From: Rhipicephalus microplus
Taxonomy: Eukaryota > Arthropoda > Arachnida > Ixodida > Ixodidae
Direction: 5' to 3'
NCBI RefSeq assembly: GCF_043290135.1
Contig: NC_134700.1
Location: 77,913,000-77,976,999, forward strand
DNA length: 64,000 nt
The position numbers were made by a program, and so were the translations under genes. The notes beneath the pieces were generated by a model. It was not told where the DNA came from, did no database searches, and saw only the letters and a list, made by a program, of their open reading frames with translations. Position 1 is the first letter of the stretch; each line of letters starts with the position of its first letter. Positions 30,869-64,000 of the stretch are shown in pieces.

Positions 30869-33800
30869 CATCAGCTAAAGGTACACCATGTGCTGGTGGA
30901 CGTTGAACAATGTGATCACCCGCGTGCCTCCATCCTCCTCACCTTTTAAGAAGTCTAGCTGCGATGCTGATACAGACACTGTTATGGGCGCCTTGTTGGT
31001 AGCCCTTGATGGGTGACACCCCTCAGAAAAACGTCTTTTTCAGCCTTCTTTTCGCTCTCATCCTCAGAGCTGCTGCATTCGAACCGCAGGTTGACAGGCA
31101 CATCCCTGAAGCCTAGGACGCGGCCCCTTTTTTCACGCATGACTATACGCAGGTTGACCCTAGTGCCCACATGTTCTTTGGACAAATCAAAGTAATACAA
31201 TTTCATTCTGTGTAGCAGTATTGTGTGACGATCCCTGTCCGATTCATGATACAGAACCGCTTCAATGCATTCGACATCAGCTAAAAGTACACCATGTGCT
31301 GGTGGACGTTGAACGATGTGATCACCCGCGTGCCTCCATCCTCCTCACCTTTTAAGAAGTCTAGCTGCGATGCTGATACAGACACTGTTATGGGCGCCTT
31401 GTTGGTAGCCCTTGATGGGTGAAACCTCTAAGAGGAACGTCTTTTTCAGCCTCCTTTTCGCTCTCATCCTCAGAGCTGCTGCATTCGAACCGCAGCAGAC
31501 AGGCACATCCCTGAAGCCCAGGACGCGGCCCCTGTTTCCATGCATGACTATGCGCAGGTTGACCCTAGTGCCCACATGTTCTTTGGACAAATCAAAGTAA
31601 TACAATTTCATTCTGTGTAGCAGTATTGTGTGACGATCCCTGTCCGATTCATGATACAGAACCGCTTCAATGCATTCAACATCAGCTAAAAGTACACCAT
31701 GTGCTGGTGGACGTTGAACAATGTGATCACCCGCGTGCCTCCACCCTCCTCACCTGTTAAGAATTCTAGCTGCGATGCTGATACAGACACTGTTATGGGC
31801 GCCTTGTTTGTAGCCCTTGATGGGTGAAACCTCTCAGAAAAACGTCTTTTTCGGGCTTCTTTTCGCTCTCATCCTCAGAGCTGCTGCATTCAAACCGCAG
31901 GTTGACAGGCACATCCTTGAAGCCTAGGACGCGGCCCCTTTTTTCACGCATGATTATACGCAGGTTGACCCTAGTGCCCACATGTTCTTTGGACAAATCA
32001 AACTAATACAATTTAATTTGGTGTAGCAGTATTGAGTGACGATCCCTGTCCGATTCATGATACAGAACCGCTTCAATGCATTCGACATCAGCTAAAAGTA
32101 CACCATGTGCTGGTGGACGTTGAACGATGTGATCACCCGCGTGCCTCCATCCTCCTCACCTTTAAGAAGTCTAGCTGTGATGCTGATACAGACACTGTTA
32201 TGGGCGCCTTGTTGGTAGCCCTTGATGGGTGAAACCTCTCAGAGGAACGTCTTTCTCAGCCTTCTTTTCGCTCTCATCGAAGCTGCTGCACTTGAACCGC
32301 AGGTTGACAGGCACATTCCTCAAGCCCAGGACGCGGCCCCTGTTTTCATGCATGACTATGCGCAGGTTGACCCTAGTGCCCACAAGTTCTTTAGACAAAT
32401 CAGGGTAATACACCTATGATTTGGTGTAGCAGTGTGGTGTGACGATCCCTGTCCGATTCATGATACAGAACCGCTTGGATGCATTCAACATCAGCTAAAA
32501 GTACTAGTGCCCACATGTTCTTTGGACAAATCAAAGTAATACACCTCTGATTTGGTGTAGCAGTGTGGTGTGACGATCCCTGTCCGATTCATGATACAGA
32601 ACCGCTTCGATGCATTCAACATCAGCTAAAAGTACACCATGTGCTGGTGGACGATGAACGATGTGATCACCCCCGTGCCTCCACCCTCCTCACCTGTAAA
32701 CAAGTCCAGCTGCGATGGTGACTCAGACACTGTTATGTGCGGGCGCCTTGTTGGTAGCCGTTGATGGGTAAAACCTCCCAGAGAAATGTTTTCCTCGGCC
32801 TCCTTTTAGCTCTCATCATTGTAGCTGCTACACTTGAACCGCAGGTTGACAGGCACATTCCTGAAGCCCAGGGCACGGTCCCCTTTTTTTGCGCATGACT
32901 ATGTGCAGGTTGACCTTGGTGCCCACATATTCTTTGGACAAATCAGAGTAATAAACCTATGATTAGGTGTAGCAGTGTGGTGTGACGATCCCTGTTCGAT
33001 TCATGATACTGAATTGCTTCAATGCATTCGACATCAGCTAAAAGTACACCATGTGCTGGTTGACGTTGAAAAATGTGAGCACCCGCGTGCCTCCACCCTC
33101 CTTACCCGTTAAGAAGTCTAGCTGTGATGCTGATACAGACACTGTTATGGGCGCCTTGTTGGTAGCCCTTGATGGGTGAAACCTCTCAGAAAAACGTATT
33201 TTTCAGCCTTCTTTTCGCTCTCATTCTCAGAGCTGCTGCATTCGAACCGCAGGTTGACAGGCACATCCCTGAAGCCTAGGACGCGGCCACTTTTTTCACG
33301 CATGACTATACGCAGGTTGACCCCAGTGCCCACATGTTCTTTGGACAAATCAAAGTAATACACCTCTGATTTGGCGTAGCAGTGTGGTGTGACGATCCTT
33401 GTCTGATTCATGATACAGAACCGCTTCGATGCATTCAACATCAGCTAAAAGTACACCATGTGCTGGTGGACGCTGAACGATGTGATCACCCCCGTGCCTC
33501 CACCCTCCTCACCTGTGAAGAAGTCCAGCTGCGATGGTGACTCAGACACTGTTATAGGCGGGGGGCTTGTTGGTATCCGTTGATGGGTAAAACCTCCCAG
33601 AGAAACGTTTTCCTCGGCCTCCTTTTCGCTCTCATCATTGTGGCTGCTGCACTTGAACCGCAGGTTGACAGGCACATTCCTGAAGCCCAGGGCGCGGCCC
33701 CTTTTTTTTACGCATGACTATGCGCAGGTTGACCCTAGTGCCCACATGTTCTTTGGACAAATCAAAGTAATACACCTCTGATTTGGTGTAGCAGTGTGGT

Positions 33801-35179: not shown

Positions 35180-38100
35180 TTATGGGCACCTTGTTGGTAG
35201 CCCTTGATGGGTGAAACCTCTCAGAGAAATGTCTTCTTTAGCCTTCTTTTCGCTCTCATCGTTGGAGCTGCTGCTTTTGAACCGCAGGTTGACAGGCACA
35301 TTCCTGAAGCCTAGGACGCGGCCCCTTCTTTCATGCATGACTATGCGCAGGTTGACCCTAGTGCCCACATGTTCTTTGGACAAATCAGAGTAATAAACCT
35401 ATGATTTGATGTAGCAGTGTGGTGTGACGATCCCAGTCCGATTCATGATACAGAACCGCTTCGATGCATTCAACATCAGCGAAAAGTACACAATGTGCTG
35501 GTGGACGTTGAACAATGTGATCACCCGCGTGCCTCCACCCTCCTCACCTGTCAAGAAGTCTACCTGCGATGCTGATACAGACACTGTTATGGGCACCTTG
35601 TTGGTAGCCGTTGATGGGTGAAAGCTCTCACAGAAACGTCTTCTTCAGCCTCCTTTTCGCTCTCAGCGTTGGAGCTGCTGCACTTGAACTGCAGGTTGAC
35701 AGGAACATCCCTGAAGCCTAGGACGCGGCCCCCTTTTTCACGCATGAATATGCGCAGGTTGACCCTAGTGCCCACATGTTCTTCGGACAAATCAAAGTAA
35801 CACACCTCTGATTTGGTGTAGCAGTGTGGTGTGACGATCCCTGTCCGATTCATGATACAGAACCGCTTCGATGTACTCAACATCAGCTAAAAGTACGCCA
35901 TGTGCTGGTTGACGTTGAACAATGTGATCACCCCCGTGCCTCCACCCTCCTCGCCTGTTAAGAAGTCTAGCTGCGATGCTGATACAGACACTGTTATGGG
36001 CGCCTTGTTGGTAGCCGTTGATGGGTGAAACCTCTCAGAGAAACGTCTTCTTCAGCCTCCTTTTCGCTCTCATCGTTGGAGCTGCTGCACTTGAACCGCA
36101 GGTTGACAGGCACATCCCTGAAGCCTAAGACGCGGCCCCTTTTCTCACGCACGACTATGCGCAGGTTGACACTAGTGCCCACATGTTCTTTGGACAAATC
36201 AAAGTAATGGACCTCTGATTTGGTGTAGCAGTGTGGTGTGACGATCCATGTCCGATTTATAATACAGAACCGCTTCGATGCATTCAACATCAGCTAAAAG
36301 TACAACATGTGCTGGTGGACGTTGAACGATGTGATCACCCATGTGCCTCCACCCTCCTCGCCTGTAAAGAAGTCCAGCTGCGATGGTGACTCAGGCACTG
36401 TTATGGGCGGGCGCCTTGTTGGTAGCCGTTGATGGGTGAAACATCCCAGAGAAACGTTTTCCTCAGCCTCCTTTTCGCTCTCATTGTTCTAGCTGCTGCA
36501 CTTGAACCGCAGGTTGACAGGCACTTTCCTGAAGCCCAGGGCGCGGCCCCTTTTCATCGCGCATGACTATGCGCAGGTTGACCCTAGTGCCCACATGTTC
36601 TTTGGACAAATCAAAGAATACACCTATGATTTGGTGTAGCAGTGTGGTGGGACGATCCCTGTTTGATTCATGATACTGAACTGCTTCAGTGCATTCGACA
36701 TCAGCTAAATGTACACCATGTGCTGGTTGACATGAACAATGTGATCACCCGTGTGCCTCCACTCTCCTCACCTGTAAAGAAGTCCAGCTTGATGGTGACA
36801 CAGAGACTGTTATGGGCGCCTTGTTGGTAGCCCTTGATGGGTGAAACCTCTCAGAGAAATGTCTTCTTCAGCCTTCTTTTCGCTCTCATCGTTGGAGCTG
36901 CTGCACTTGAACCGCAGGTTGACAGGCACATTCCTGAAGCCTAGGACGCGGCCCCTTCTTTCATGCATGACTATGCGCAGGTTGACCGTAGTGCCCACAT
37001 GTTCTTTGGACAAATCAGAGTAATAAACCTATGATTTGGTGTAGCAGTGTGGTGTGACGATCCCAGTCCGATTCATGATACAGAACCGCTTCGATGCATT
37101 CAACATCAGCGAAAAGTACACAATGTGCTGGTGGACGTTGAACAATGTGATCACCCGCGTGCCTCCACCCTCCTCACCTGTCAAGAAGTCTACCTGCGAT
37201 GCTGATACAGACACTGTTATGGGCACCTTGTTGGTAGCCGTTGATGGGTGAAAGCTCTCACAGAAACGTCTTCTTCAGCCTCCTTTTCGCTCTCAGCGTT
37301 GGAGCGGCTGCACTTGAACTGCAGGTTGACAGGAACATCCCTGAAGCCTAGGACGCGGCCCCCTTTTTCACGCATGAATATGCGCAGGTTGACCCTAGTG
37401 CCCACATGTTCTTCGGACAAATCAAAGTAACACACCTCTGATTTGGTGTAGCAGTGTGGTGTGACGATCCCTGTCCGATTCATGATACAGAACCGCTTCG
37501 ATGTACTCAACATCAGCTAAAAGTACGCCATGTGCTGGTTGACGTTGAACAATGTGATCACCCCCGTGCCTCCACCCTCCTCGCCTGTTAAGAAGTCTAG
37601 CTGCGATGCTGATACAGACACTGTTATGGGCGCCTTGTTGGTAGCCGTTGATGGGTGAAACCTCTCAGAGAAACGTCTTCTTCAGCCTCCTTTTCGCTCT
37701 CATCGTTGGAGCTGCTGCACTTGAACCGCAGGTTGACAGGCACATTCCTGAAGCCTAGGACGCGGCCCCTTCTTTCATGCATGACTATGCGCAGGTTGAC
37801 CGTAGTGCCCACATGTTCTTTGGACAAATCAGAGTAATAAACCTATGATTTGGTGTAGCAGTGTGGTGTGACGATCCCAGTCCGATTCATGATACAGAAC
37901 CGCTTCGATGCATTCAACATCAGCTAAAAGTACAACATGTGCTGGTGGACGTTGAACGATGTGATCACCCATGTGCTTCCACCCTCCTCGCCTGTAAAGA
38001 AGTCCAGCTGCGATGGTGACTCAGGCACTGTTATGGGCGGGCGCCTTGTTGGTAGCCGTTGATGGGTGAAACATCCCAGAGAAACGTTTTCCTCAGCCTC

Positions 38101-41100
38101 CTTTTCGCTCTCATTGTTCTAGCTGCTGCACTTGAACCGCAGGTTGACAGGCACTTTCCTGAAGCCCAGGGCGCGGCCCCTTTTCATCGCGCATGACTAT
38201 GCGCAGGTTGACCCTAGTGCCCACATGTTCTTTGGACAAATCAAAGAATACACCTATGATTTGGTGTAGCAGTGTGGTGGGACGATCCCTGTTTGATTCA
38301 TGATACTGAACTGCTTCAGTGAATTCGACATCAGCCAAATGTACACCATGTGCTGGTTGACATGAACAATGTGATCACCCGTGTGCCTCCACTCTCCTCA
38401 CCTGTAAAGAAGTCCAGCTTGATGGTGACACAGAGACTGTTATGGGCGCCTTGTTGGTAGCCCTTGATGGGTGAAACCTCTCAGAGAAATGTCTTCTTCA
38501 GCCTTCTTTTCGCTCTCATCGTTGGAGCTGCTGCACTTGAACCGCAGGTTGACAGGCACATTCCTGAAGCCTAGGACGCGGCCCCTTCTTTCATGCATGA
38601 CTATGCGCAGGTTGACCGTAGTGCCCACATGTTCTTTGGACAAATCAGAGTAATAAACCTATAATTTGGTGTAGCAGTGTGGTGTGACGATCCCAGTCCG
38701 ATTCATGATACAGAACCGCTTCGATGCATTCAACATCAGCGAAAAGTACACAATGTGCTGGTGGACGTTGAACAATGTGATCACCCGCGTGCCTCCACCC
38801 TCCTCACCTGTCAAGAAGTCTACCTGCGATGCTGATACAGACACTGTTATGGGCACCTTGTTGGTAGCCGTTGATGGGTGAAAGCTCTCACAGAAACGTC
38901 TTCTTCAGCCTCCTTTTCGCTCTCAGCGTTGGAGCGGCTGCACTTGAACTGCAGGTTGACAGGAACATCCCTGAAGCCTAGGACGCGGCCCCCTTTTTCA
39001 CGCATGAATATGCGCAGGTTGACCCTAGTGCCCACATGTTCTTCGGACAAATCAAAGTAACACACCTCTGATTTGGTGTAGCAGTGTGGTGTGACGATCC
39101 CTGTCCGATTCATGATACAGAACCGCTTCGATGTACTCAACATCAGCTAAATGTACGCCATGTGCTGGTTGACGTTGAACAATGTGATCACCCCCGTGCC
39201 TCCACCCTCCTCGCCTGTTAAGAAGTCTAGCTGCGATGCTGATACAGACACTGTTATGGGCGCCTTGTTGGTAGCCGTTGATGGGTGAAACCTCTCAGAG
39301 AAACGTCTTCTTCAGCCTCCTTTTCGCTCTCATCGTTGGAGCTGCTGCACTTGAACCGCAGGTTGACAGGCACATTCCTGAAGCCTAGGACGCGGCCCCT
39401 TCTTTCATGCATGACTATGCGCAGGTTGACCGTAGTGCCCACATGTTCTTTGGACAAATCAGAGTAATAAACCTATGATTTGGTGTAGCAGTGTGGTGTG
39501 ACGATCCCAGTCCGATTCATGATACAGAACCGCTTCGATGCATTCAACATCAGCTAAAAGTACAACATGTGCTGGTGGACGTTGAACGATGTGATCACCC
39601 ATGTGCTTCCACCCTCCTCGCCTGTAAAGAAGTCCAGCTGCGATGGTGACTCAGGCACTGTTATGGGCGGGCGCCTTGTTGGTAGCCGTTGATGGGTGAA
39701 ACATCCCAGAGAAACGTTTTCCTCAGCCTCCTTTTCGCTCTCATTGTTCTAGCTGCTGCACTTGAACCGCAGGTTGACAGGCACTTTCCTGAAGCCCAGG
39801 GCGCGGCCCCTTTTCATCGCGCATGACTATGCGCAGGTTGACCCTAGTGCCCACATGTTCTTTGGACAAATCAAAGAATACACCTATGATTTGGTGTAGC
39901 AGTGTGGTGGGACGATCCCTGTTTGATTCATGATACTGAACTGCTTCAGTGCATTCGACATCAGCGAAAAGTACACAATGTGCTGGTGGACGTTGAACAA
40001 TGTGATCACCCGCGTGCCTCCACCCTCCTCACCTGTCAAGAAGTCTACCTGCGATGCTGATACAGACACTGTTATGGGCACCTTGTTGGTAGCCGTTGAT
40101 GGGTGAAAGCTCTCACAGAAACGTCTTCTTCAGCCTCCTTTTCGCTCTCAGCGTTGGAGCTGCTGCACTTGAACTGCAGGTTGACAGGAACATCCCTGAA
40201 GCCTAGGACGCGGCCCCCTTTCTCACGCATGAATATGCGCAGGTTGACCCTAGTGCCCACATGTTCTTTAGACAAATCAAAGTAATACACCTCTGATTTG
40301 CTGTAGCAGCGTGGTGTGACGATCCCTGTCCGATTCATGATACAGAACCGCTTCGATGCATTCGACATCAGTCACAAGTACACCATTTGCTTGTTGACGT
40401 TGAACAATGTGAGCACCCGTGTGCCTCCACCCTCCTCACTTGTTAAGAAGTCCAGCTTGATGGTGACACAGACACTGTTATGGGCACCTTGTTGGTAGCC
40501 CTTGATGGGTGAAACCTCTCAGAGAAATGTCTTCTTTAGCCTTCTTTTCGCTCTCATCGTTGGAGCTGCTGCTTTTGAACCGCAGGTTGACAGGCACATT
40601 CCTGAAGCCTAGGACGCGGCCCCTTCTTTCATGCATGACTATGCGCAGGTTGACCCTAGTGCCCACATGTTCTTTGGACAAATCAGAGTAATAAACCTAT
40701 GATTTGGTGTAGCAGTGTGGTGTGACAATCCCTGTCCGATTCATAATACAGAACCGCTTCGATGCATTCAACATCAGCTAAAAGTACACCATGTGCTGGT
40801 GGACGTTGAACAATGTGAGCACCCGCGTGCCTCCACCCTCCTCACCTGTCAAGAAGTCTACCTGCGATGCTGATACAGACACTGTTATGGGCACCTTGTT
40901 GGTAGCCGTTGATGGGTGAAAGCTCTCAGAGAAACGTCTTCTTCAGCCTCCTTTTCGCTCTCATCGTTGGAGCTGCTGCACTTGAACTGCAGGTTGACAG
41001 GAACATCCCTGAAGCCTAGGACGCGGCCCCCTTTCTCACGCATGAATATGCGCAGGTTGACCCTAGTGCCCACATGTTCTTCGGACAAATCAAAGTAACA

Positions 41101-44100
41101 CACCTCTGATTTGGTGTAGCAGTGTGGTGTGACGATCCCTGTCCGATTCATGATACAGAACCGCTGCGATGTACTCAACATCAGCTAAAAGTACGCCATG
41201 TGCTGGTTGACGTTGAACAATGTGATCACCCCCGTGCCTCCACCCTCCTCGCCTGTTAAGAAGTCTAGCTGCGATGCTGATACAGACACTGTTATGGGCG
41301 CCTTGTTGGTAGCCGTTGATGGGTGAAACCTCTCAGAGAAACGTCTTCTTCAGCCTCCTTTTCGCTCTCATCGTTGGAGCTGCTGCACTTGAACCGCAGG
41401 TTGACAGGCACATCCCTGAAGCCTAAGACGCGGCCCCTTTTCTCACGCACGACTATGCGCAGGTTGACACTAGTGCCCACATGTTCTTTGAACAAATCAA
41501 AGTAATGGACCTCTGATTTGGTGTAGCAGTGTGGTGTGACGATCCATGTCCGATTTATAATACAGAACCGCTTCGATGCATTCAACATCAGCTAAAAGTA
41601 CATCATGTGCTGGTGGACGTTGAACGATGTGATCACCCATGTGCCTCCACCCTCCTCGCCTGTAAAGAAGTCCAGCTGCGATGGTGACTCAGGCACTGTT
41701 ATGGGCGGGCGCCTTGTTGGTAGCCGTTGATGGGTAAAACATCCCAGAGAAACGTTTTCCTCAGCGTCCTTTTCGCTCTCATTGTTCTAGCTGCTGCACT
41801 TGAACCGCAGGTTGACAGGCACTTTCCTGAAGCCCAGGGCGCGGCCCCTTTTCATCGCGCATGACTATGCGCAGGTTGACCCTAGTGCCCACATGTTCTT
41901 TGGACAAATCAAAGAATACACCTATGATTTGGTGTAGCAGTGTGGTGGGACGATCCCTGTTTGATTCATGATACTGAACTGCTTCAGTGCATTCGACATC
42001 AGCTAAATGTACACCATGTGCTGGTTGACATGAACAATGTGATCACCCGTGTGCCTCCACTCTCCTCACCTGTAAAGAAGTCCAGCTTGATGGTGACACA
42101 GAGACTGTTATGGGCGCCTTGTTGGTAGCCCTTGATGGGTGAAACCTCTCAGAGAAATGTCTTCTTCAGCCTTCTTTTCGCTCTCATCGTTGGAGCTGCT
42201 GCACTTGAACCGCAGGTTGACAGGCACATTCCTGAAGCCTAGGACGCGGCCCCTTCTTTCATGCATGACTATGCGCAGGTTGACCCTAGTGCCCACATGT
42301 TCTTTGGACAAATCAGAGTAATAAACCTATGATTTGGTGTAGCAGTGTGGTGTGACGATCCCAGTCCGATTCATGATACAGAACCGCTTCGATGCATTCA
42401 ACATCAGCGAAAAGTACACAATGTGCTGGTGGACGTTGAACAATGTGATCACCCGCGTGCCTCCACCCTCCTCACCTGTCAAGAAGTCTACCTGCGATGC
42501 TGATACAGACACTGTTATGGGCACCTTGTTGGTAGCCGTTGATGGGTGAAAGCTCTCACAGAAACGTCTTCTTCAGCCTCCTTTTCGCTCTCAGCGTTGG
42601 AGCTGCTGCACTTGAACTGCAGGTTGACAGGAACATCCCTGAAGCCTAGGACGCGGCCCCCTTTTTCACGCATGAATATGCGCAGGTTGACCCTAGTGCC
42701 CACATGTTCTTCGGACAAATCAAAGTAACACACCTCTGATTTGGTGTAGCAGTGTGGTGTGACGATCCCTGTCCGATTCATGAAACAGAACCGCTTCGAT
42801 GTACTCAACATCAGCTAAAAGTACGCCATGTGCTGGTTGACGTTGAACAATGTGATCACCCCCGTGCCTCCACCCTCCTCGCCTGTTAAGAAGTCTAGCT
42901 GCGATGCTGATACAGACACTGTTATGGGCGCCTTGTTGGTAGCCGTTGATGGGTGAAACCTCTCAGAGAAACGTCTTCTTCAGCCTCCTTTTCGCTCTCA
43001 TCGTTGGAGCTGCTGCACTTGAACCGCAGGTTGACAGGCACATCCCTGAAGCCTAAGACGCGGCCCCTTTTCTCACGCACGACTATGCGCAGGTTGACAC
43101 TAGTGCCCACATGTTCTTTGGACAAATCAAAGTAATGGACCTCTGATTTGGTGTAGCAGTGTGGTGTGACGATCCATGTCCGATTTATAATACAGAACCG
43201 CTTCGATGCATTCAACATCAGCTAAAAGTACAACATGTGCTGGTGGACGTTGAACGATGTGATCACCCATGTGCCTCCACCCTCCTCGCCTGTAAAGAAG
43301 TCCAGCTGCGATGGTGACTCAGGCACTGTTATGGGCGGGCGCCTTGTTGGTAGCCGTTGATGGGTGAAACATCCCAGAGAAACGTTTTCCTCAGCCTCCT
43401 TTTCGCTCTCATTGTTCTAGCTGCTGCACTTGAACCGCAGGTTGACAGGCACTTTCCTGAAGCCCAGGGCGCGGCCCCTTTTCATCGCGCATGACTATGC
43501 GCAGGTTGACCCTAGTGCCCACATGTTCTTTGGACAAATCAAAGAATACACCTATGATTTGGTGTAGCAGTGTGGTGGGACGATCCCTGTTTGATTCATG
43601 ATACTGAACTGCTTCAGTGCATTCGACATCAGCTAAATGTACACCATGTGCTGGTTGACATGAACAATGTGATCACCCGTGTGCCTCCACTCTCCTCACC
43701 TGTAAAGAAGTCCAGCTTGATGGTGACACAGAGACTGTTATGGGCGCCTTGTTGGTAGCCCTTGATGGGTGAAACCTCTCAGAGAAATGTCTTCTTCAGC
43801 CTTCTTTTCGCTCTCATCGTTGGAGCTGCTGCACTTGAACCGCAGGTTGACAGGCACATTCCTGAAGCCTAGGACGCGGCCCCTTCTTTCATGCATGACT
43901 ATGCGCAGGTTGACCCTAGTGCCCACATGTTCTTTGGACAAATCAGAGTAATAAACCTATGATTTGGTGTAGCAGTGTGGTGTGACGATCCCAGTCCGAT
44001 TCATGATACAGAACCGCTTCGATGCATTCAACATCAGCGAAAAGTACACAATGTGCTGGTGGACGTTGAACAATGTGATCACCCGCGTGCCTCCACCCTC

Positions 44101-47100
44101 CTCACCTGTCAAGAAGTCTACCTGCGATGCTGATACAGACACTGTTATGGGCACCTTGTTGGTAGCCGTTGATGGGTGAAAGCTCTCACAGAAACGTCTT
44201 CTTCAGCCTCCTTTTCGCTCTCAGCGTTGGAGCTGCTGCACTTGAACTGCAGGTTGACAGGAACATCCCTGAAGCCTAGGACGCGGCCCCCTTTTTCACG
44301 CATCAATATGCGCAGGTTGACCCTAGTGCCCACATGTTCTTCGGACAAATCAGAGTAATACATCTATGATTTGGTGTAGCAGTATGGTGGGACGATCCCT
44401 GTTCGATTCATGATACAGAACCGCTTCAATGCATTCGACATCAGTCACAAGTACACCATTTGCTTGTTGACGTTGAACAATGTGAGCACCCGTGTGCCTC
44501 CACCCTCCTCACTTGTTAAGAAGTCCAGCTTGATGGTGACACAGACACTGTTATGGGCACCTTGTTGGTAGCCCTTGATGGGTGAAACCTCTCAGAGAAA
44601 TGTCTTCTTTAGCCTTCTTTTCGCTCTCATCGTTGGAGCTGCTGCTTTTGAACCGCAGGTTGACAGGCACATTCCTGAAGCCTAGGACGCGGCCCCTTCT
44701 TTCATGCATGACTATGCGCAGGTTGACCCTAGTGCCCACATGTTCTTTGGACAAATCAGAGTAATAAACCTATGATTTGATGTAGCAGTGTGGTGTGACG
44801 ATCCCAGTCCGATTCATGATACAGAACCGCTTCGATGCATTCAACATCAGCGAAAAGTACACAATGTGCTGGTGGACGTTGAACAATGTGATCACCCGCG
44901 TGCCTCCACCCTCCTCACCTGTCAAGAAGTCTACCTGCGATGCTGATACAGACACTGTTATGGGCACCTTGTTGGTAGCCGTTGATGGGTGAAAGCTCTC
45001 ACAGAAACGTCTTCTTCAGCCTCCTTTTCGCTCTCAGCGTTGGAGCTGCTGCACTTGAACTGCAGGTTGACAGGAACATCCCTGAAGCCTAGGACGCGGC
45101 CCCCTTTTTCACGCATGAATATGCGCAGGTTGACCCTAGTGCCCACATGTTCTTCGGACAAATCAAAGTAACACACCTCTGATTTGGTGTAGCAGTGTGG
45201 TGTGATGATCCCTGTCCGATTCATGATACAGAACCGCTTCGATGTACTCAACATCAGCTAAAAGTACGCCATGTGCTGGTTGACGTTGAACAATGTGATC
45301 ACCCCCGTGCCTCCACCCTCCTCGCCTGTTAAGAAGTCTAGCTGCGATGCTGATACAGACACTGTTATGGGCGCCTTGTTGGTAGCCGTTGATGGGTGAA
45401 ACCTCTCAGAGAAACGTCTTCTTCAGCCTCCTTTTCGCTCTCATCGTTGGAGCTGCTGCACTTGAACCGCAGGTTGACAGGCACATCCCTGAAGCCTAAG
45501 ACGCGGCCCCTTTTCTCACGCACGACTATGCGCAGGTTGACACTAGTGCCCACATGTTCTTTGGACAAATCAAAGTAATGGACCTCTGATTTGGTGTAGC
45601 AGTGTGGTGTGACGATCCATGTCCGATTTATAATACAGAACCGCTTCGATGCATTCAACATCAGCTAAATGTACAACATGTGCTGGTGGACGTTGAACGA
45701 TGTGATCACCCATGTGCCTCCAACCTCCTCGCCTGTAAAGAAGTCCAGCTGCGATGGTGACTCAGGCACTGTTATGGGCGGGCGCCTTGTTGGTAGCCGT
45801 TGATGGGTGAAACATCCCAGAGAAACGTTTTCCTCAGCCTCCTTTTCGCTCTCATTGTTCTAGCTGCTGCACTTGAACCGCAGGTTGACAGGCACTTTCC
45901 TGAAGCCCAGGGCGCGGCCCCTTTTCATCGCGCATGACTATGCGCAGGTTGACCCTAGTGCCCACATGTTCTTTGGACAAATCAAAGAATACACCTATGA
46001 TTTGGTGTAGCAGTGTGGTGGGACGATCCCTGTTTGATTCATGATACTGAACTGCTTCAGTGCATTCGACATCAGCTAAATGTACACCATGTGCTGGTTG
46101 ACATGAACAATGTGATCACCCGTGTGCCTCCACTCTCCTCACCTGTAAAGAAGTCCAGCTTGATGGTGACACAGAGACTGTTATGGGCGCCTTGTTGGTA
46201 GCCCTTGATGGGTGAAACCTCTCAGAGAAATGTCTTCTTCAGCCTTCTTTTCGCTCTCATCGTTGGAGCTGCTGCACTTGAACCGCAGGTTGACAGGCAC
46301 ATTCCTGAAGCCTAGGACGCGGCCCCTTCTTTCATGCATGACTATGCGCAGGTTGACCCTAGTGCCCACATGTTCTTTGGACAAATCAGAGTAATAAACC
46401 TATGATTTGGTGTAGCAGTGTGGTGTGACGATCCCAGTCCGATTCATGATACAGAACCGCTTCGATGCATTCAACATCAGCGAAAAGTACACAATGTGCT
46501 GGTGGACGTTGAACAATGTGATCACCCGCGTGCCTCCACCCTCCTCACCTGTCAAGAAGTCTACCTGCGATGCTGATACAGACACTGTTATGGGCACCTT
46601 GTTGGTAGCCGTTGATGGGTGAAAGCTCTCACAGAAACGTCTTCTTCAGCCTCCTTTTCGCTCTCAGCGTTGGAGCGGCTGCACTTGAACTGCAGGTTGA
46701 CAGGAACATCCCTGAAGCCTAGGACGCGGCCCCCTTTTTCACGCATCAATATGCGCAGGTTGACCCTAGTGCCCACATGTTCTTCGGACAAATCAAAGTA
46801 ACACACCTCTGATTTGGTGTAGCAGTGTGGTGTGACGATCCCTGTCCGATTCATGATACAGAACCGCTTCGATGTACTCAACATCAGCTAAAAGTACGCC
46901 ATGTGCTGGTTGACGTTGAACAATGTGATCACCCCCGTGCCTCCACCCTCCTCGCCTGTTAAGAAGTCTAGCTGCGATGCTGATACAGACACTGTTATGG
47001 GCGCCTTGTTGGTAGCCGTTGATGGGTGAAACCTCTCAGAGAAACGTCTTCTTCAGCCTCCTTTTCGCTCTCATCGTTGGAGCTGCTGCACTTGAACCGC

Positions 47101-50100
47101 AGGTTGACAGGCACATCCCTGAAGCCTAAGACGCGGCCCCTTTTCTCACGCACGACTATGCGCAGGTTGACACTAGTGCCCACATGTTCTTTGGACAAAT
47201 CAAAGTAATGGACCTCTGATTTGGTGTAGCAGTGTGGTGTGACGATCCATGTCCGATTTATAATACAGAACCGCTTCGATGCATTCAACATCAGCTAAAA
47301 GTACAACATGTGCTGGTGGACGTTGAACGATGTGATCACCCATGTGCTTCCACCCTCCTCGCCTGTAAAGAAGTCCAGCTGCGATGGTGACTCAGGCACT
47401 GTTATGGGCGGGCGACTTGTTGGTAGCCGTTGATGGGTGAAACATCCCAGAGAAACGTTTTCCTCAGCCTCCTTTTCGCTCTCATTGTTCTAGCTGCTGC
47501 ACTTGAACCGCAGGTTGACAGGCACTTTCCTGAAGCCCAGGGCGCGGCCCCTTTTCATCGCGCATGACTATGCGCAGGTTGACCCTAGTGCCCACATGTT
47601 CTTTGGACAAATCAAAGAATACACCTATGATTTGGTGTAGCAGTGTGGTGGGACGATCCCTGTTTGATTCATGATACTGAACTGCTTCAGTGCATTCGAC
47701 ATCAGCGAAAAGTACACAATGTGCTGGTGGACGTTGAACAATGTGATCACCCGCGTGCCTCCACCCTCCTCACCTGTCAAGAAGTCTACCTGCGATGCTG
47801 ATACAGACACTGTTATGGGCACCTTGTTGGTAGCCGTTGATGGGTGAAAGCTCTCACAGAAACGTCTTCTTCAGCCTCCTTTTCGCTCTCAGCGTTGGAG
47901 CTGCTGCACTTGAACTGCAGGTTGACAGGAACATCCCTGAAGCCTAGGACGCGGCACCCTTTCTCACGCATGAATATGCGCAGGTTGACCCTAGTGCCCA
48001 CATGTTCTTTAGACAAATCAAAGTAATACACCTCTGATTTGCTGTAGCAGCGTGGTGTGACGATCCCTGTCCGATTCATGATACAGAACCGCTTCGATGC
48101 ATTCGACATCAGTCACAAGTACACCATTTGCTTGTTGACGTTGAACAATGTGAGCACCCGTGTGCCTCCACCCTCCTCACTTGTTAAGAAGTCCAGCTTG
48201 ATGGTGACACAGACACTGTTATGGGCACCTTGTTGGTAGCCCTTGATGGGTGAAACCTCTCAGAGAAATGTCTTCTTTAGCCTTCTTTTCGCTCTCATCG
48301 TTGGAGCTGCTGCTTTTGAACCGCAGGTTGACAGGCACATTCCTGAAGCCTAGGACGCGGCCCCTTCTTTCATGCATGACTATGCGCAGGTTGACCCTAG
48401 TGCCCACATGTTCTTTGGACAAATCAGAGGAATAAACCTATGATTTGATGTAGCAGTGTGTGTGACGATCCCAGTCCGATTCATGATACAGAACCGCTTC
48501 GATGCATTCAACATCAGCGAAAAGTACACAATGTGCTGGTGGACGTTGAACAATGTGATCACTCGCGTGCCTCCACCCTCCTCACCTGTCAAGAAGTCTA
48601 CCTGCGATGCTGATACAGACACTGTTATGGGCACCTTGTTGGTAGCCGTTGATGGGTGAAAGCTCTCAGAGAAACGTCTTCTTCAGCCTCCTTTTCGCTC
48701 TCATCGTTGGAGCTGCTGCACTTGAACTGCAGGTTGACAGGAACATCCCTGAAGCCTAGGACGCGGCCCCCTTTCTCACGCATGAATATGCGCAGGTTGA
48801 CCCTAGTGCCCACATGTTCTTCGGACAAATCAAAGTAACACACCTCTGATTTGGTGTAGCAGTGTGGTGTGACGATCCCTGTCCGATTCATGATACAGAA
48901 CCGCTTCGATGTACTCAACATCAGCTAAAAGTACGCCATGTGCTGGTTGACGTTGAACATTGTGATCACCCCCGTGCCTCCACCCTCCTCGCATGTTAAG
49001 AAGTCTAGCTGCGATGCTGATACAGACACTGTTATGGGCGCCTTGTTGGTAGCCGTTGATGGGTGAAACCTCTCAGAGAAACGTCTTCTTCAGCCTCCTT
49101 TTCGCTCTCATCGTTGGAGCTGCTGCACTTGAACCGCAGGTTGACAGGCACATCCCTGAAGCCTAAGACGCGGCCCCTTTTCTCACGCACGACTATGCGC
49201 AGGTTGACACTAGTGCCCACATGTTCTTTGGACAAATCAAAGTAATGGACCTCTGATTTGGTGTAGCAGTGTGGTGTGACGATCCATGTCCGATTTATAA
49301 TACAGAACCGCTTCGATGCATTCAACATCAGCTAAAAGTACATCATGTGCTGGTGGACGTTGAACGATGTGATCACCCATGTGCCTCCACCCTCCTCGCC
49401 TGTAAAGAAGTCCAGCTGCGATGGTGACTCAGGCACTGTTATGGGCGGGCGCCTTGTTGGTAGCCGTTGATGGGTAAAACATCCCAGAGAAACGTTTTCC
49501 TCAGCGTCCTTTTCGCTCTCATTGTTCTAGCTGCTGCACTTGAACCGCAGGTTGACAGGCACTTTCCTGAAGCCCAGGGCGCGGCCCCTTTTCATCGCGC
49601 ATGACTATGCGCAGGTTGACCCTAGTGCCCACATGTTCTTTGGACAAATCAAAGAATACACCTATGATTTGGTGTAGCAGTGTGGTGGGACGATCCCTGT
49701 TTGATTCATGATACTGAACTGCTTCAGTGCATTCGACATCAGCTAAATGTACACCATGTGCTGGTTGACATGAACAATGTGATCACCCGTGTGCCTCCAC
49801 TCTCCTCACCTGTAAAGAAGTCCAGCTTGATGGTGACACAGAGACTGTTATGGGCGCCTTGTTGGTAGCCCTTGATGGGTGAAACCTCTCAGAGAAATGT
49901 CTTCTTCAGCCTTCTTTTCGCTCTCATCGTTGGAGCTGCTGCACTTGAACCGCAGGTTGACAGGCACATTCCTGAAGCCTAGGACGCGGCCCCTTCTTTC
50001 ATGCATGACTATGCGCAGGTTGACCCTAGTGCCCACATGTTCTTTGGACAAATCAGAGTAATAAACCTATGATTTGGTGTAGCAGTGTGGTGTGACGATC

Positions 50101-53100
50101 CCAGTCCGATTCATGATACAGAACCGCTTCGATGCATTCAACATCAGCGAAAAGTACACAATGTGCTGGTGGACGTTGAACAATGTGATACCCGCGTGCC
50201 TCCACCCTCCTCACCTGTCAAGAAGTCTACCTGCGATGCTGATACAGACACTGTTATGGGCACCTTGTTGGTAGCCGTTGATGGGTGAAAGCTCTCACAG
50301 AAACGTCTTCTTCAGCCTCCTTTTCGCTCTCAGCGTTGGAGCTGCTGCACTTGAACTGCAGGTTGACAGGAACATCCCTGAAGCCTAGGACGCGGCCCCC
50401 TTTTTCACGCATGAATATGCGCAGGTTGACCCTAGTGCCCACATGTTCTTCGGACAAATCAAAGTAACACACCTCTGATTTGGTGTAGCAGTGTGGTGTG
50501 ACGATCCCTGTCCGATTCATGATACAGAACCGCTTCGATGTACTCAACATCAGCTAAAAGTACGCCATGTGCTGGTTGACGTTGAACAATGTGATCACCC
50601 CCGTGCCTCCACCCTCCTCGCCTGTTAAGAAGTCTAGCTGCGATGCTGATACAGACACTGTTATGGGCGCCTTGTTGGTAGCCGTTGATGGGTGAAACCT
50701 CTCAGAGAAACGTCTTCTTCAGCCTCCTTTTCGCTCTCATCGTTGGAGCTGCTGCACTTGAACCGCAGGTTGACAGGCACATCCCTGAAGCCTAAGACGC
50801 GGCCCCTTTTCTCACGCACGACTATGCGCAGGTTGACACTAGTGCCCACATGTTCTTTGGACAAATCAAAGTAATGGACCTCTGATTTGGTGTAGCAGTG
50901 TGGTGTGACGATCCATGTCCGATTTATAATACAGAACCGCTTCGATGCATTCAACATCAGCTAAAAGTACAACATGTGCTGGTGGACGTTGAACGATGTG
51001 ATCACCCATGTGCCTCCACCCTCCTCGCCTGTAAAGAAGTCCAGCTGCGATGGTGACTCAGGCACTGTTATGGGCGGGCGCCTTGTTGGTAGCCGTTGAT
51101 GGGTGAAACATCCCAGAGAAACGTTTTCCTCAGCCTCCTTTTCGCTCTCATTGTTCTAGCTGCTGCACTTGAACCGCAGGTTGACAGGCACTTTCCTGAA
51201 GCCCAGGGCGCGGCCCCTTTTCATCGCGCATGACTATGCGCAGGTTGACCCTAGTGCCCACATGTTCTTTGGACAAATCAAAGAATACACCTATGATTTG
51301 GTGTAGCAGTGTGGTGGCACGATCCCTGTTTGATTCATGATACTGAACTGCTTCAGTGCATTCGACATCAGCTAAATGTACACCATGTGCTGGTTGACAT
51401 GAACAATGTGATCACCCGTGTGCCTCCACTCTCCTCACCTGTAAAGAAGTCCAGCTTGATGGTGACACAGAGACTGTTATGGGCGCCTTGTTGGTAGCCC
51501 TTGATCGGTGAAACCTCTCAGAGAAATGTCTTCTTCAGCCTTCTTTTCGCTCTCATCGTTGGAGCTGCTGCACTTGAACCGCAGGTTGACAGGCACATTC
51601 CTGAAGCCTAGGACGCGGCCCCTTCTTTCATGCATGACTATGCGCAGGTTGACCCTAGTGCCCACATGTTCTTTGGACAAATCAGAGTAATAAACCTATG
51701 ATTTGGTGTAGCAGTGTGGTGTGACGATCCCAGTCCGATTCATGATACAGAACCGCTTCGATGCATTCAACATCAGCGAAAAGTACACAATGTGCTGGTG
51801 GACGTTGAACAATGTGATCACCCGCGTGCCTCCACCCTCCTCACCTGTCAAGAAGTCTACCTGCGATGCTGATACAGACACTGTTATGGGCACCTTGTTG
51901 GTAGCCGTTGATGGGTGAAAGCTCTCACAGAAACGTCTTCTTCAGCCTCCTTTTCGCTCTCAGCGTTGGAGCTGCTGCACTTGAACTGCAGGTTGACAGG
52001 AACATCCCTGAAGCCTAGGACGCGGCCCCCTTTTTCACGCATCAATATGCGCAGGTTGACCCTAGTGCCCACATGTTCTTCGGACAAATCAAAGTAACAC
52101 ACCTCTGATTTGGTGTAGCAGTGTGGTGTGACGATCCCTGTCCGATTCATGATACAGAACCGCTTCGATGTACTCAACATCAGCTAAAAGTACGCCATGT
52201 GCTGGTTGACGTTGAACAATGTGATCACCCCCGTGCCTCCACCCTCCTCGCCTGTTAAGAAGTCTAGCTGCGATGCTGATACAGACACTGTTATGGGCGC
52301 CTTGTTGGTAGCCGTTGATGGGTGAAACCTCTCAGAGAAACGTCTTCTTCAGCCTCCTTTTCGCTCTCATCTTTGGAGCTGCTGCACTTGAACCGCAGGT
52401 TGACAGGCACATCCCTGAAGCCTAAGACGCGGCCCCTTTTCTCACGCACGACTATGCGCAGGTTGACACTAGTGCCCACATGTTCTTTGGACAAATCAAA
52501 GTAATGGACCTCTGATTTGGTGTAGCAGTGTGGTGTGACGATCCATGTCCGATTTATAATACAGAACCGCTTCGATGCATTCAACATCAGCTAAAAGTAC
52601 AACATGTGCTGGTGGACGTTGAACGATGTGATCACCCATGTGCCTCCACCCTCCTCGCCTGTAAAGAAGTCCAGCTGCGATGGTGACTCAGGCACTGTTA
52701 TGGGCGGGCGCCTTGTTGGTAGCCGTTGATGGGTGAAACATCCCAGAGAAACGTTTTCCTCAGCCTCCTTTTCGCTCTCATTGTTCTAGCTGCTGCACTT
52801 GAACCGCTGGTTGACAGGCACTTTCCTGAAGCCCAGGGCGCGGCCCCTTTTCATCGCGCATGACTATGCGCAGGTTGACCCTAGTGCCCACATGTTCTTT
52901 GGACAAATCAAAGAATACACCTATGATTTGGTGTAGCAGTGTGGTGGGACGATCCCTGTTTGATTCATGATACTGAACTGCTTCAGTGCATTCGACATCA
53001 GCGAAAAGTACACAATGTGCTGGTGGACGTTGAACAATGTGATCACCCGCGTGCCTCCACCCTCCTCACCTGTCAAGAAGTCTACCTGCGATGCTGATAC

Positions 53101-53400
53101 AGACACTGTTATGGGCACCTTGTTGGTAGCCGTTGATGGGTGAAAGCTCTCACAGAAACGTCTTCTTCAGCCTCCTTTTCGCTCTCAGCGTTGGAGCTGC
53201 TGCACTTGAACTGCAGGTTGACAGGAACATCCCTGAAGCCTAGGACGCGGCCCCCTTTCTCACGCATGAATATGCGCAGGTTGACCCTAGTGCCCACATG
53301 TTCTTTAGACAAATCAAAGTAATACACCTCTGATTTGCTGTAGCAGCGTGGTGTGACGATCCCTGTCCGATTCATGATACAGAACCGCTTCGATGCATTC
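35180..53400 (-). repeat. Higher-order repeat block, four monomers per ~1630-bp unit
   Basis: The monomer type with the ESEKKAEEDISLRGFTHQG linker recurs at 35180, 36810, 38440, 40478, 42108, 43738, 44551, 46181, 48219, 49848 and 51477. Spacings are 1629-1630, except 2038 (one extra monomer) before 40478 and 48219, and 813 (two fewer) before 44551. Corresponding monomers in successive units are nearly identical, while the four types within a unit differ clearly. Types differ by fixed stops and by presence of gggcgggcgcc or gggcgcc. Confidence 0.8.
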
Positions 53401-58500: not shown

Positions 58501-61500
58501 CTTGAACTGCAGGTTGACAGGAACATCCCTGAAGCCTAGGACGCGGCCCCCTTTTTCACGCATCAATATGCGCAGGTTGACCCTAGTGCCCACATGTTCT
58601 TCGGACAAATCAAAGTAACACACCTCTGATTTGGTGTAGCAGTGTGGTGTGACGATCCCTGTCCGATTCATGATACAGAACCGCTTCGATGTACTCAACA
58701 TCAGCTAAAAGTACGCCATGTGCTGGTTGACGTTGAACAATGTGATCACCCCCGTGCCTCCACCCTCCTCGCCTGTTAAGAAGTCTAGCTGCGATGCTGA
58801 TACAGACACTGTTATGGGCGCCTTGTTGGTAGCCGTTGATGGGTGAAACCTCTCAGAGAAACGTCTTCTTCAGCCTCCTTTTCGCTCTCATCGTTGGAGC
58901 TGCTGCACTTGAACCGCAGGTTGACAGGCACATCCCTGAAGCCTAAGACGCGGCCCCTTTTCTCACGCACGACTATGCGCAGGTTGACACTAGTGCCCAC
59001 ATGTTCTTTGGACAAATCAAAGTAATGGACCTCTGATTTGGTGTAGCAGTGTGGTGTGACGATCCATGTCCGATTTATAATACAGAACCGCTTCGATGCA
59101 TTCAACATCAGCTAAAAGTACAACATGTGCTGGTGGACGTTGAACGATGTGATCACCCATGTGCCTCCACCCTCCTCGCCTGTAAAGAAGTCCAGCTGCG
59201 ATGGTGACTCAGGCACTGTTATGGGCGGGCGCCTTGTTGGTAGCCGTTGATGGGTGAAACATCCCAGAGAAACGTTTTCCTCAGCCTCCTTTTCGCTCTC
59301 ATTGTTCTAGCTGCTGCACTTGAACCGCAGGTTGACAGGCACTTTCCTGAAGCCCAGGGCGCGGCCCCTTTTCATCGCGCATGACTATGCGCAGGTTGAC
59401 CCTAGTGCCCACATGTTCTTTGGACAAATCAAAGAATACACCTATGATTTGGTGTAGCAGTGTGGTGGGACGATCCCTGTTTGATTCATGATACTGAACT
59501 GCTTCAGTGCATTCGACATCAGCTAAATGTACACCATGTGCTGGTTGACATGAACAATGTGATCACCCGTGTGCCTCCACTCTCCTCACCTGTAAAGAAG
59601 TCCAGCTTGATGGTGACACAGAGACTGTTATGGGCGCCTTGTTGGTAGCCCTTGATGGGTGAAACCTCTCAGAGAAATGTCTTCTTCAGCCTTCTTTTCG
59701 CTCTCATCGTTGGAGCTGCTGCACTTGAACCGCAGGTTGACAGGCACATTCCTGAAGCCTAGGACGCGGCCCCTTTTTTCATGCATGACTATGCGCAGGT
59801 TGACCCTAGTGCCCACATGTTCTTTGGACAAATCAGAGTAATAAACCTATGATTTGGTGTAGCAGTGTGGTGTGACGATCCCAGTCCGATTCATGATACA
59901 GAACCGCTTCGATGCATTCAACATCAGCGAAAAGTACACAATGTGCTGGTGGACGTTGAACAATGTGATCACCCGCGTGCCTCCACCCTCCTCACCTGTC
60001 AAGAAGTCTACCTGCGATGCTGATACAGACACTGTTATGGGCACCTTGTTGGTAGCCGTTGATGGGTGAAAGCTCTCACAGAAACGTCTTCTTCAGCCTC
60101 CTTTTCGCTCTCAGCGTTGGAGCTGCTGCACTTGAACTGCAGGTTGACAGGAACATCCCTGAAGCCTAGGACGCGGCCCCCTTTTTCACGCATCAATATG
60201 CGCAGGTTGACCCTAGTGCCCACATGTTCTTCGGACAAATCAAAGTAACACACCTCTGATTTGGTGTAGCAGTGTGGTGTGACGATCCCTGTCCGATTCA
60301 TGATACAGAACCGCTTCGATGTACTCAACATCAGCTAAAAGTACGCCATGTGCTGGTTGACGTTGAACAATGTGATCACCCCCGTGCCTCCACCCTCCTC
60401 GCCTGTTAAGAAGTCTAGCTGCGATGCTGATACAGACACTGTTATGGGCGCCTTGTTGGTAGCCGTTGATGGGTGAAACCTCTCAGAGAAACGTCTTCTT
60501 CAGCCTCCTTTTCGCTCTCATCGTTGGAGCTGCTGCACTTGAACCGCAGGTTGACAGGCACATCCCTGAAGCCTAAGACGCGGCCCCTTTTCTCACGCAC
60601 GACTATGCGCAGGTTGACACTAGTGCCCACATGTTCTTTGGACAAATCAAAGTAATGGACCTCTGATTTGGTGTAGCAGTGTGGTGTGACGATCCATGTC
60701 CGATTTATAATACAGAACCGCTTCGATGCATTCAACATCAGCTAAAAGTACAACATGTGCTGGTGGACGTTGAACGATGTGATCACCCATGTGCCTCCAC
60801 CCTCCTCGCCTGTAAAGAAGTCCAGCTGCGATGGTGACTCAGGCACTGTTATGGGCGGGCGCCTTGTTGGTAGCCGTTGATGGGTGAAACATCCCAGAGA
60901 AACGTTTTCCTCAGCCTCCTTTTCGCTCTCATTGTTCTAGCTGCTGCACTTGAACCGCTGGTTGACAGGCACTTTCCTGAAGCCCAGGGCGCGGCCCCTT
61001 TTCATCGCGCATGACTATGCGCAGGTTGACCCTAGTGCCCACATGTTCTTTGGACAAATCAAAGAATACACCTATGATTTGGTGTAGCAGTGTTGTGGGA
61101 CGATCCCTGTTTGATTCATGATACTGAACTGCTTCAGTGCATTCGACATCAGCGAAAAGTACACAATGTGCTGGTGGACGTTGAACAATGTGATCACCCG
61201 CGTGCCTCCACCCTCCTCACCTGTCAAGAAGTCTACCTGCGATGCTGATACAGACACTGTTATGGGCACCTTGTTGGTAGCCGTTGATGGGTGAAAGCTC
61301 TCACAGAAACGTCTTCTTCAGCCTCCTTTTCGCTCTCAGCGTTGGAGCTGCTGCACTTGAACTGCAGGTTGACAGGAACATCCCTGAAGCCTAGGACGCG
61401 GCCCCCTTTCTCACGCATGAATATGCGCAGGTTGACCCTAGTGCCCACATGTTCTTTAGACAAATCAAAGTAATACACCTCTGATTTGCTGTAGCAGCGT

Positions 61501-61551
61501 GGTGTGACGATCCCTGTCCGATTCATGATACAGAACCGCTTCGATGCATTC
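55551..61551 (-). repeat. Second higher-order repeat block
   Basis: The same four-monomer, 1630-bp organisation resumes (marker monomers at 56368, 57998 and 59628) and ends in the same way as the first block before the repeated diverged segment. Confidence 0.75.
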
Positions 61552-64000
61552 AACATCAGCTAAACGTACACCATGTGCTGGTGGACGTTGAACGATGTGA
61601 TCACCCCCGTGCCTCCGCCCTCCTCACCTGTAAAGAAGTCCAGCTGCGATGGTGACTCAGACACTGTTATGGGCGGGCGCCTTGTTGGTAGCCGTTGATG
61701 GGTAAAACCTCCCAAAGAAACGTTTTCCTCAGCCTCTTTTTCGCTCTCATCATTGTAGCTGCTTCACTTGAACCGCAGGTTGACAGGCACATTCCTGAAG
61801 CCCAGGGTGCGGCCCCTTTTTTTTGCGCATGACTATGTGCAGGTTGACCCTGGTGCCAGCATGTTCTTTGGACAAATCAGAGTAATAAACCTATGATTTG
61901 GTGTAGCAGTGTGGTGTGACAATCCCTGTCCGATTCATAATACAGAACCGCTTCGATGCATTCAACATCAGCTAAAAGTACACCATGTGCTGGTGGACGT
62001 TGAACAATGTGAGCACCCGCGTGCCTCCACCCTCCTCACCTGTTAAGAAGTCTAGCTGCGATGCTGATACAGACACTGTTAAGGGCACCTTGTTGGTAGC
62101 CGTTGATGGGTAAAACCTGTCAGAGAAACGTCTTCTTCAGCCTCCTTTTCGCTCTTATCGTTGGAGCCGCTGCACTTGAACCGCAGGTTGACAGGCACAT
62201 TCCTTAAGCCCAGGACGTGGACCCTTTTTCATGCATGACTATGCGCAGGTTGAGCCTAGTGCCCACATGTTCTTAGGACAAATCAGAGTAATACACCTAT
62301 GATTTGGTGTAGCAGTGTGGTGGGACGATCCCTGTTTGATTCATGATACAGAACCGCTTCAATGCATTCGACATCAGTCAAAAGTACACCGTGTGGTGGT
62401 TGACGTTGAACAATGTGATCACCTGCGTGCCTCCACCCTCCTCACCTGTAAAGAAGTCCAGCTGCGATGGTGACACAGACACCGTTATGGGCGCCTTGTT
62501 GGTAGCCCTTGATGGCTGAAACCTCTCAGAGAAACGTCTTCTTCAGCCTCCTTTTCGCTCTCATCGTGTGAGCTGCTGCACTTGAACCGCAGGTTGACAG
62601 GCACATTCCTGAAGCCCAGGACGTGGCCCCTTTTTCATGCATTACTATGCGCAAGTTGACCCTAGGGCCCACATGTTCTTCGGACAAATCAGAGTAATAT
62701 ACCTATGACTTGGTGTAGCAGTGTGGTGGGACGATCCCTGTTCAATTCATGATACTGAACTGCTTCAATGCATTCGACATCAGCTAAAAGTACACCATGT
62801 GCTGGTTGACGTTGAACAATGTGAGCACACGCGTGCCTCCACCTTCCTGGTTTGTAAAGAAGTCCAGCTGCGATGGTGACACAGACACTGTCAAGGGGAC
62901 CTTGTTGGTAGCCGTTGATGGGTAAAACCGGTCAGAGAAACGTCTTCTTCAGCCTCCTTTTCGCTCTCATCGTTGGAGCTGCTGTACTTGAACCGCAAGT
63001 TGACAGGCACATTCCTGAAGCCCAGGACGTGGCCCCTTTTTCATGCATGACTATGCGCAGGTTGACCCTAGTTCCCACATGTTCTTAGGACAAATCAGAG
63101 TAATACACCTATGATTTGGTGTAGCAGTGCCGTGGGACGATCCCTGTTCGATTCATGATACAGAGCCGCTTCAATGCATTCGACATCAGTCAAAAGTACA
63201 CCATTTGCTTGTTGACGTTTAACAATGTGAGCACCCGCGTGCCTCCACCCTCCTCACCTGTTAAGAAGTCCAGCTGCGATGCTGATACGGACACTGTTAA
63301 GGGCACCTTGTTGGTAGCCGTTGATGGGTAAAACCTGTCAGAGAAACGTCTTCTTCAGCCTCCTTTTTGCTCTCATCGTTGGAGCTGCTGCATTCAAACC
63401 GCAGGTTGACAGGCACATCCCTGAAGCCTAGGACGCGGCCCCTTTTTTCACGCATGACTATACGCAGGTTGACCCTAGTGCCCACATGTTCTTTGGACAA
63501 ATGAAAGTAATACAATTTAATTTGGTGTAGCAGTATTGCGTGACGATCCCTGTCCGATTCATGATACAGAACCGCTTCAATGCATTCGACATCAGCTAAA
63601 AGTACACCATGTGCTGGTGGACGTTGAACGATGTGATCACCCGCGTGCCTCCATCCTCCTCACCTTTTAAGAAGTCTAGCTGCGATGCTGATACAGACAC
63701 TGTTATGGGCGCCTTGTTGGTAGCCGTTGATGGGTGAAACCTCTCAGAGAAACGTCTTCTTCAGCCTCCTTTTCGCTCTCATCGTTGGAGCTGCTGCACT
63801 TGAACCGCAGGTTGACAGGCACATTCCTGAAGCCTAGGACGCGGCCCCTTTTCTCACGCACGACTATGCGCAGGTTGACACTAGTGCCCACATTGTCTTT
63901 GGACAAGTCAAAGTAATCGACCTCTGATTTGGTGTAGCAGTGTGGTGTGACGATCCATGTCCGATTTATAATACAGAACCGCTTCGATGGATTCAACATC
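61552..64000 (-). repeat. Repeat of the diverged segment, 8151 bp downstream of the first copy
   Basis: Matches 53401-55849 at a constant offset of 8151 bp with only a few differences seen (for example accggtatggg against accgttatggg, tatgtgcagg against tatgcgcagg, gacaaatcaaag against gacaagtcaaag). Confidence 0.8.

Follow-up and report, generated by a model that had tools for sequence, protein, structure and literature searches.

A satellite-like array of decayed MSP domains in Rhipicephalus microplus, probably descended from a processed MOSPD1-type retrocopy

We analysed a stretch of 64,000 nucleotides, here called the window, from the 3.26-Gb genome assembly of the tick Rhipicephalus microplus (C1:77,913,000-77,976,999), in which a tandem array with a unit of about 0.41 kb starts at position 30869 and runs out of the right-hand end. 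This 40.6-kb array very probably consists of some 100 decayed copies of the major sperm protein (MSP) domain and linker of a MOSPD1-type gene, which likely derive from a processed retrocopy. It is non-coding, satellite-like and found at one locus, and its ancestor was probably a processed MOSPD1-type retrocopy. On balance we also favour describing it as a satellite born from an mRNA, in which a spliced MOSPD1-type transcript would have been rewritten into the chromosome and a domain-sized piece of it would have become the monomer of a higher-order repeat, with the start codon of the founder kept at the edge of the array.

Results

Tandem Repeats Finder (TRF) reported periods of 405-407 bp across 30869-64000, plus a short row at 131 bp. 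An anchor search of the window returned 82 anchors, corresponding to 80 full units of 403-412 bp each and one 131-bp interval, in good agreement with the roughly 81 tandem monomers from position 30869 on that had been reported in a first-pass annotation of this DNA. That annotation had described a 33-kb satellite; the array is there, and it is larger, since it passes position 64000 and ends at 77203 on the window scale (C1:77,990,202), within the 200 kb fetched to the right. It does not recur in the remainder of that flank. Window and flank together hold 99 anchors and 96 full units, arranged in two blocks (30869-68203 and 73952-77203, window scale) that are divided by a 5.7-kb insert at about 68204-73951. 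Mean pairwise identity between units in the window is 91%, and about 90% between neighbours. In a homogenised core, four unit types, J-K-L-M, with lengths of 407, 407, 411 and 405 bp, form a higher-order repeat with a period of 1,630 bp, in which certain units are skipped or replaced; copies of the same type are 98-99% identical there.

The units share a minus-strand peptide pattern, as the first-pass annotation had noticed, with two stops in the consensus and a loss of frame at the unit junction. Its reading of this pattern as a decayed MSP-like domain with a MOSPD-type linker was borne out. With X at its two stops, the majority consensus had PF00635, the MSP family, as its sole Pfam match (E 8.7e-4, 19.6 bits). 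A protein search with a mixed consensus, in which sense codons were favoured, gave four matches: three R. microplus hypothetical proteins from a similar array and P0003, an intact protein of 240 residues with a precomputed PF00635 domain, which is 57% identical over 99% of the consensus. P0003 itself scored 32.3 bits against PF00635, above the curated cut-off of 25.9 bits, with weaker matches below cut-off to Cep192_D6 and a CFAP65 domain; in the PDB it matched MOSPD2 and VAP weakly (best E 0.0084), and an alignment used as query found VAP-A (E 7.6e-4). Against the array, P0003 scored 164 bits in tblastn (two blocks joined), compared with at best 25.4 bits in 20 dinucleotide shuffles, 19 of which gave any match, while the reversed array gave no listed match for P0003. 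All 141 high-scoring segment pairs (HSPs) of P0003 on the window and right flank (E up to 1e-5) lie on the minus strand.

A search with P0003 listed 12 proteins. Five of these carry the name motile sperm domain-containing protein 1 or 3-like (R. microplus, Dermacentor), and the other seven are unnamed or uncharacterised. Most combine a single MSP domain with an acidic linker and a hydrophobic C-terminus, in which two membrane segments are likely; the exceptions are P0006 and P0011, with several half-domains, and P0014, which ends early. The unit of the array spans from the start of the MSP domain to the end of the linker, directly before the membrane part; the C-terminal membrane segments had no match in the array or the surrounding 263 kb, and residues 161-233 of P0003 matched, genome-wide, at four genic loci only. 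A representative complete unit with one in-frame TAG (P0016) aligned with ten relatives at 34-55%. Its AlphaFold2 model, with the TAG read as Q and the relatives in the alignment, has nine strands (mean pLDDT, the per-residue confidence score, 69), and a Foldseek search with this model placed yeast SCS2, VAP and nematode MSP structures in rows 1-16 (best E 1.4e-7), followed in lower rows by other Ig-like folds, e.g., HYDIN and pilus chaperones. With moderate confidence, the unit is thus predicted to encode the immunoglobulin-like MSP fold. The array is a relic of the MSP family and not an intact member of it. Among the array proteins deposited at NCBI, Pfam gave only weak, unrelated matches for P0001 (E 0.037 or worse) and none for P0002.

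That an intact parent gene might survive elsewhere had also been suggested, and intact MOSPD1-type relatives are indeed located in the tick's own genome: searches with P0003 and P0010 (MOSPD1 isoform X3) gave exon-wise matches at four genic loci (Table 1). The nearest of these to the array, on C11, is a MOSPD1 gene with introns and a single MSP domain. A family search of the genome with PF00635 (8 candidates) missed the MOSPD1 exons that were later recovered by protein queries; its sole match, L001, was considered as parent and set aside, as it reads as a VAP-type exon. In a FastTree phylogeny of the MSP part (12 sequences, about 105 columns), the array groups with R. microplus MOSPD1 and MOSPD3-like proteins (support 0.98), apart from Dermacentor proteins, so that the founder likely arose in the Rhipicephalus lineage.

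Parental introns are absent from the array. When four exon pieces of the C11 MOSPD1 gene were spliced and compared with the right edge of the array, the alignment was uninterrupted at all three GT-AG junctions. Of the P0003 HSPs on the array, 94 of 141 cross junctions 1 and 2, and 45 of 141 cross all three. At the other three genic loci, matches split at about the same residues; a match at C1:115877808 that seemed to cross splice junction 2 has an ordinary acceptor, TCTACAG, in the DNA and was judged an alignment run-on into the intron.

The right edge of the array also retains the beginning of a gene. Beyond the last unit, the gene strand reads MLRSGSETRRRSVSATDLR, after which the frame changes and EAGEVRDDASSAGIPENKEVEQSLDAPIPVS leads into the MSP domain; in this second frame, the stretch between MLRSGSETRRRSVSATDLR and the domain reads EAGEVRDDASSAGIPENKEVEQ. 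This edge matched residues 11-136 of P0003 (55.6%, E 4e-44, one stop) and residues 1-19 of P0010 (68%, E 0.003 in a small search). The array is therefore joined, in the order and orientation expected of such a gene, to a MOSPD1-type 5' part that lacks the introns tested, continuity at the N-terminus resting on protein comparison. The left edge is truncated inside the MSP domain and joined to unrelated sequence, and the part encoding the C-terminal membrane segments was not found there. The adjoining 30620-30868 resembles what we take to be a DNA-transposon end, a possible cause of the truncation.

With stop codons dropped and on exons 1 and 3 only, the array consensus differs from the C11 gene by a nonsynonymous divergence (dN) of 0.235 and a synonymous divergence (dS) of 0.606 (dN/dS 0.39; 74 codons, 74.8% DNA identity), and the right-edge unit by 0.294 and 0.535, respectively (75 codons). 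Among the 96 units, the transitions seen amount to 54 of 139 possible synonymous and 103 of 260 nonsynonymous changes, and the transversions to 25 of 140 synonymous, 102 of 624 nonsynonymous and 11 of 40 stop-making ones. Little or no coding constraint is thus visible between units, whereas unit and parent differ under constraint. One site carries TAG in 54 of the 96 units and another TAG or TGA in 76, 32 units have a length divisible by 3, and each match of the P0003 search that spans residues 39-161 has at least one stop. No functional protein is expected from the array in its present state.

The junction between units was readable by pattern in 76 of the 96, 59 without and 17 with an extra 4 bp; in the window, extra bases are found in 18 of 81 aligned intervals, consistent with the 4-bp indel noted earlier. 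The common form, AACAAG followed directly by GCGCCCATA or GTGCCCATA, is similar to the founder edge GACGCGCCCATA and, in the 407-bp type, breaks the frame. We infer that this form is the original one and that the unit was amplified as non-coding DNA from its beginning.

By its structure the array behaves as a satellite, being long, head-to-tail, non-coding and homogenised, with 96 full units, higher-order repeats and a near-neutral ratio of variants. The high abundance at many loci typical of satellites was not seen: in the P0003 protein search of the genome, which scored 150 of 154 candidates and gave 143 matches, array-type matches were confined to the single locus C1:77,943,865-77,990,280. 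The CENP-B-box core had no match within the window. A second R. microplus record has array-like predicted proteins (P0001, P0002 and P0004) on one 5.87-Mb contig, which speaks against an assembly artefact; one predicted protein of that record equals the window at 100% over 99 residues.

The insert that divides the array is a long interspersed nuclear element (LINE) that landed once the array had formed. It ends in a CATCATCATT tail and is flanked by a target-site duplication of at least 14 bp, GTTGGTAGCCGTTG, which consists of array sequence. Its first open reading frame (ORF) had no Pfam match.

Table 1 Coordinates of the array, its parts and the related genic loci. Positions without a contig name are those of the window.
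Feature	Position	Strand	Basis
MSP-domain tandem array, part in the window	30869..64000	minus (gene sense)	TRF, 82 anchors, right-flank DNA
Left edge, truncated inside the MSP domain and joined to unrelated sequence	30869..31226	minus	
131-bp partial unit, present twice as a short internal duplication	32373..32635	minus	TRF, anchors
Homogenised core, 4-unit higher-order repeat	35426..53358	minus	Unit-type comparison
Representative complete domain plus linker with one in-frame TAG (P0016)	48628..49038	minus	Translation, AlphaFold2, Foldseek
LINE inside the array	68204-73951 (window scale) = C1:77,981,203-77,986,950		Reverse transcriptase and endonuclease ORF
MOSPD1-type start codon and N-terminus, outside the window	C1:77,990,203-77,990,342	minus	Protein match
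MOSPD1 gene, nearest located	C11:508.10-508.20 Mb		P0010/P0003 genome searches
MOSPD-type genic locus	C11:484.30-484.37 Mb		P0010/P0003 genome searches
MOSPD-type genic locus, repeated exon	C1:115.81-115.91 Mb		P0010/P0003 genome searches
MOSPD-type genic locus	C1:25.22-25.30 Mb		P0010/P0003 genome searches

Several observations concern other members of the family or the surroundings of the array. At the MOSPD-like locus C1:115,809,901-115,907,989, the N-terminal exon was matched five times, making this a second case of internal repetition in the MOSPD family; the locus may correspond to P0006 (R. microplus) and P0011, both of which have several half-MSP repeats. About 34 of the 127 matches in the P0010 genome search, on many contigs, come from the C-terminal tail of MOSPD1 isoform X3 (P0010 residues about 269-320), which has one match in the window (4459-4533); a repeat element seems to serve as the last exon of this isoform. 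Elsewhere in the window, tRNA-family matches lie 800 bp apart at 9738-9810 and 10537-10609 and could be either tRNA genes or tRNA-derived short interspersed nuclear elements. The ORFs at 119-3352, 6306-7287, 10762-13226 and 26227-26970 presumably belong to mobile elements, as they resemble LINE, piggyBac-like and Harbinger-like transposon proteins.

Discussion

The origin that we favour would begin with a spliced MOSPD1-type mRNA copied back into the chromosome by reverse transcription, probably by LINE machinery. The 3' half of this retrocopy would then have been lost, and a first duplication would have joined the end of the linker to the start of the MSP domain, out of frame. This one segment of the retrocopy would have been multiplied and homogenised, and the array would later have grown through unequal exchange or some comparable process.

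The first-pass annotation had instead derived the monomer from one domain of a repeated-domain gene, in which case the unit would have arisen by duplication of genomic DNA. Such repetition does exist in the family, as illustrated by the five N-terminal exon matches at C1:115.81-115.91 Mb and the half-domains of P0006 and P0011, but the repeat at that locus has another unit, an N-terminal linker plus half an MSP domain, that lies in separate exons with introns kept. Genic matches are split at similar residues at all four loci while the array is continuous, and the array edge resembles the start of a single-domain gene. We therefore consider this origin improbable: the nearest genes have a single MSP domain, the commonest junction is out of frame and the parental introns are absent, which together point to a processed retrocopy as founder. 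An array that is, or recently was, a coding gene for a many-MSP protein is slightly less probable still. Such a gene would account for the extra 4 bp that keeps the frame in the 411-bp type (17 of 76 readable junctions), for open half-domain stretches of some 99 codons, for the NCBI hypothetical proteins predicted from such an array (P0001, P0002, P0004) and for a slightly lower variation at second codon positions. These features are outweighed by the stop in every match over residues 39-161, the recurrent TAG and TGA sites, the many unit lengths that are not a multiple of 3, and synonymous and nonsynonymous variants that are about equally frequent per possible change.

By analogy with Suppressor of Stellate, itself a tandem array derived from a gene, the tick array could conceivably be a source of small RNAs that silence MOSPD1 genes. 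This would be about as improbable as a coding array, as the longest exact same-sense match to the four MOSPD1 exon pieces is 14 nt, which is short for guide pairing. A chance resemblance, or another fold altogether, might be suspected from a consensus that scores under the Pfam gathering cut-off and finds no PDB chain by sequence; it is refuted for practical purposes by the margin of the P0003 match over the shuffles, the 57% identity to an intact MSP protein and the MSP and VAP structures that fill Foldseek rows 1-16, and we assign it next to no probability.

A number of points nonetheless weigh against descent from a MOSPD1-type retrocopy, or against parts of it. The first-pass annotation had proposed to compare the consensus with PF00635 and with known structures; this singled out PF00635 within Pfam, with neither the majority consensus nor the mixed one (24.0 bits) reaching the curated cut-off, and the PDB sequence search with the consensus found no chain. 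When neighbouring unit types were used to build two further readings, one scored 12.8 bits against PF00635 and the other had no match. The GT-AG borders were read in one gene only, the C11 MOSPD1 gene, whose exon with the start codon was not located, so that continuity at the N-terminus is a protein comparison with a frameshift between. With the 3' half of the retrocopy missing and the left edge truncated, neither a poly(A) tail nor a target-site duplication of the retrocopy is demonstrable. As the nearest located gene is only 75% identical in DNA, the true parent may have been a different paralogue, which is perhaps lost. The unit junction may have come to be out of frame secondarily, and second codon positions vary somewhat less than the others (columns varying in at least two units at positions 1, 2 and 3: 63, 48 and 65 of 134), which may reflect a weak residual constraint.

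Among known systems, the human D4Z4 macrosatellite has units of about 3.3 kb, and Stellate and Suppressor of Stellate of Drosophila, likewise tandem arrays from a protein gene, have longer units than the tick array and a known silencing role. Alpha-satellite-like higher-order arrays share with it the diverged neighbours within near-identical multi-unit blocks, but extend over megabases, whereas the tick array is one 40-kb locus with no CENP-B-box core in the window. The MOSPD1 and MOSPD3 genes of the VAP superfamily are homologous to it in MSP domain and linker, and their N-terminus matches its right edge; unlike them, the array lacks introns at three junctions and the hydrophobic C-terminal part, and consists of about 100 broken copies. 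The closest precedent found is D4Z4, whose units carry the DUX4 retrogene, the product of which is made (PMC5849414 and others); the likeness lies in a retrogene within tandem units. The tick unit, by contrast, is a fragment of 0.41 kb that covers one domain and its linker; each complete copy that was matched contains a stop, and the array has nested 4-unit repeats. In literature searches on tick satellites, gene-derived satellites, retrogene macrosatellites, tick MOSPD and the R. microplus assembly, the array was undescribed among the matches listed (titles and abstract openings).

To our knowledge, the origin of most satellite monomers is untraceable. In this case one can still see an intact gene relative, the loss of introns, a founder edge, the junction that created the unit and the later higher-order repeats, so that the order of events between gene copy and satellite-like array can be worked out and tested in related ticks. 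If the proposed origin is true, the whole birth of a satellite from an mRNA would be readable in one locus.

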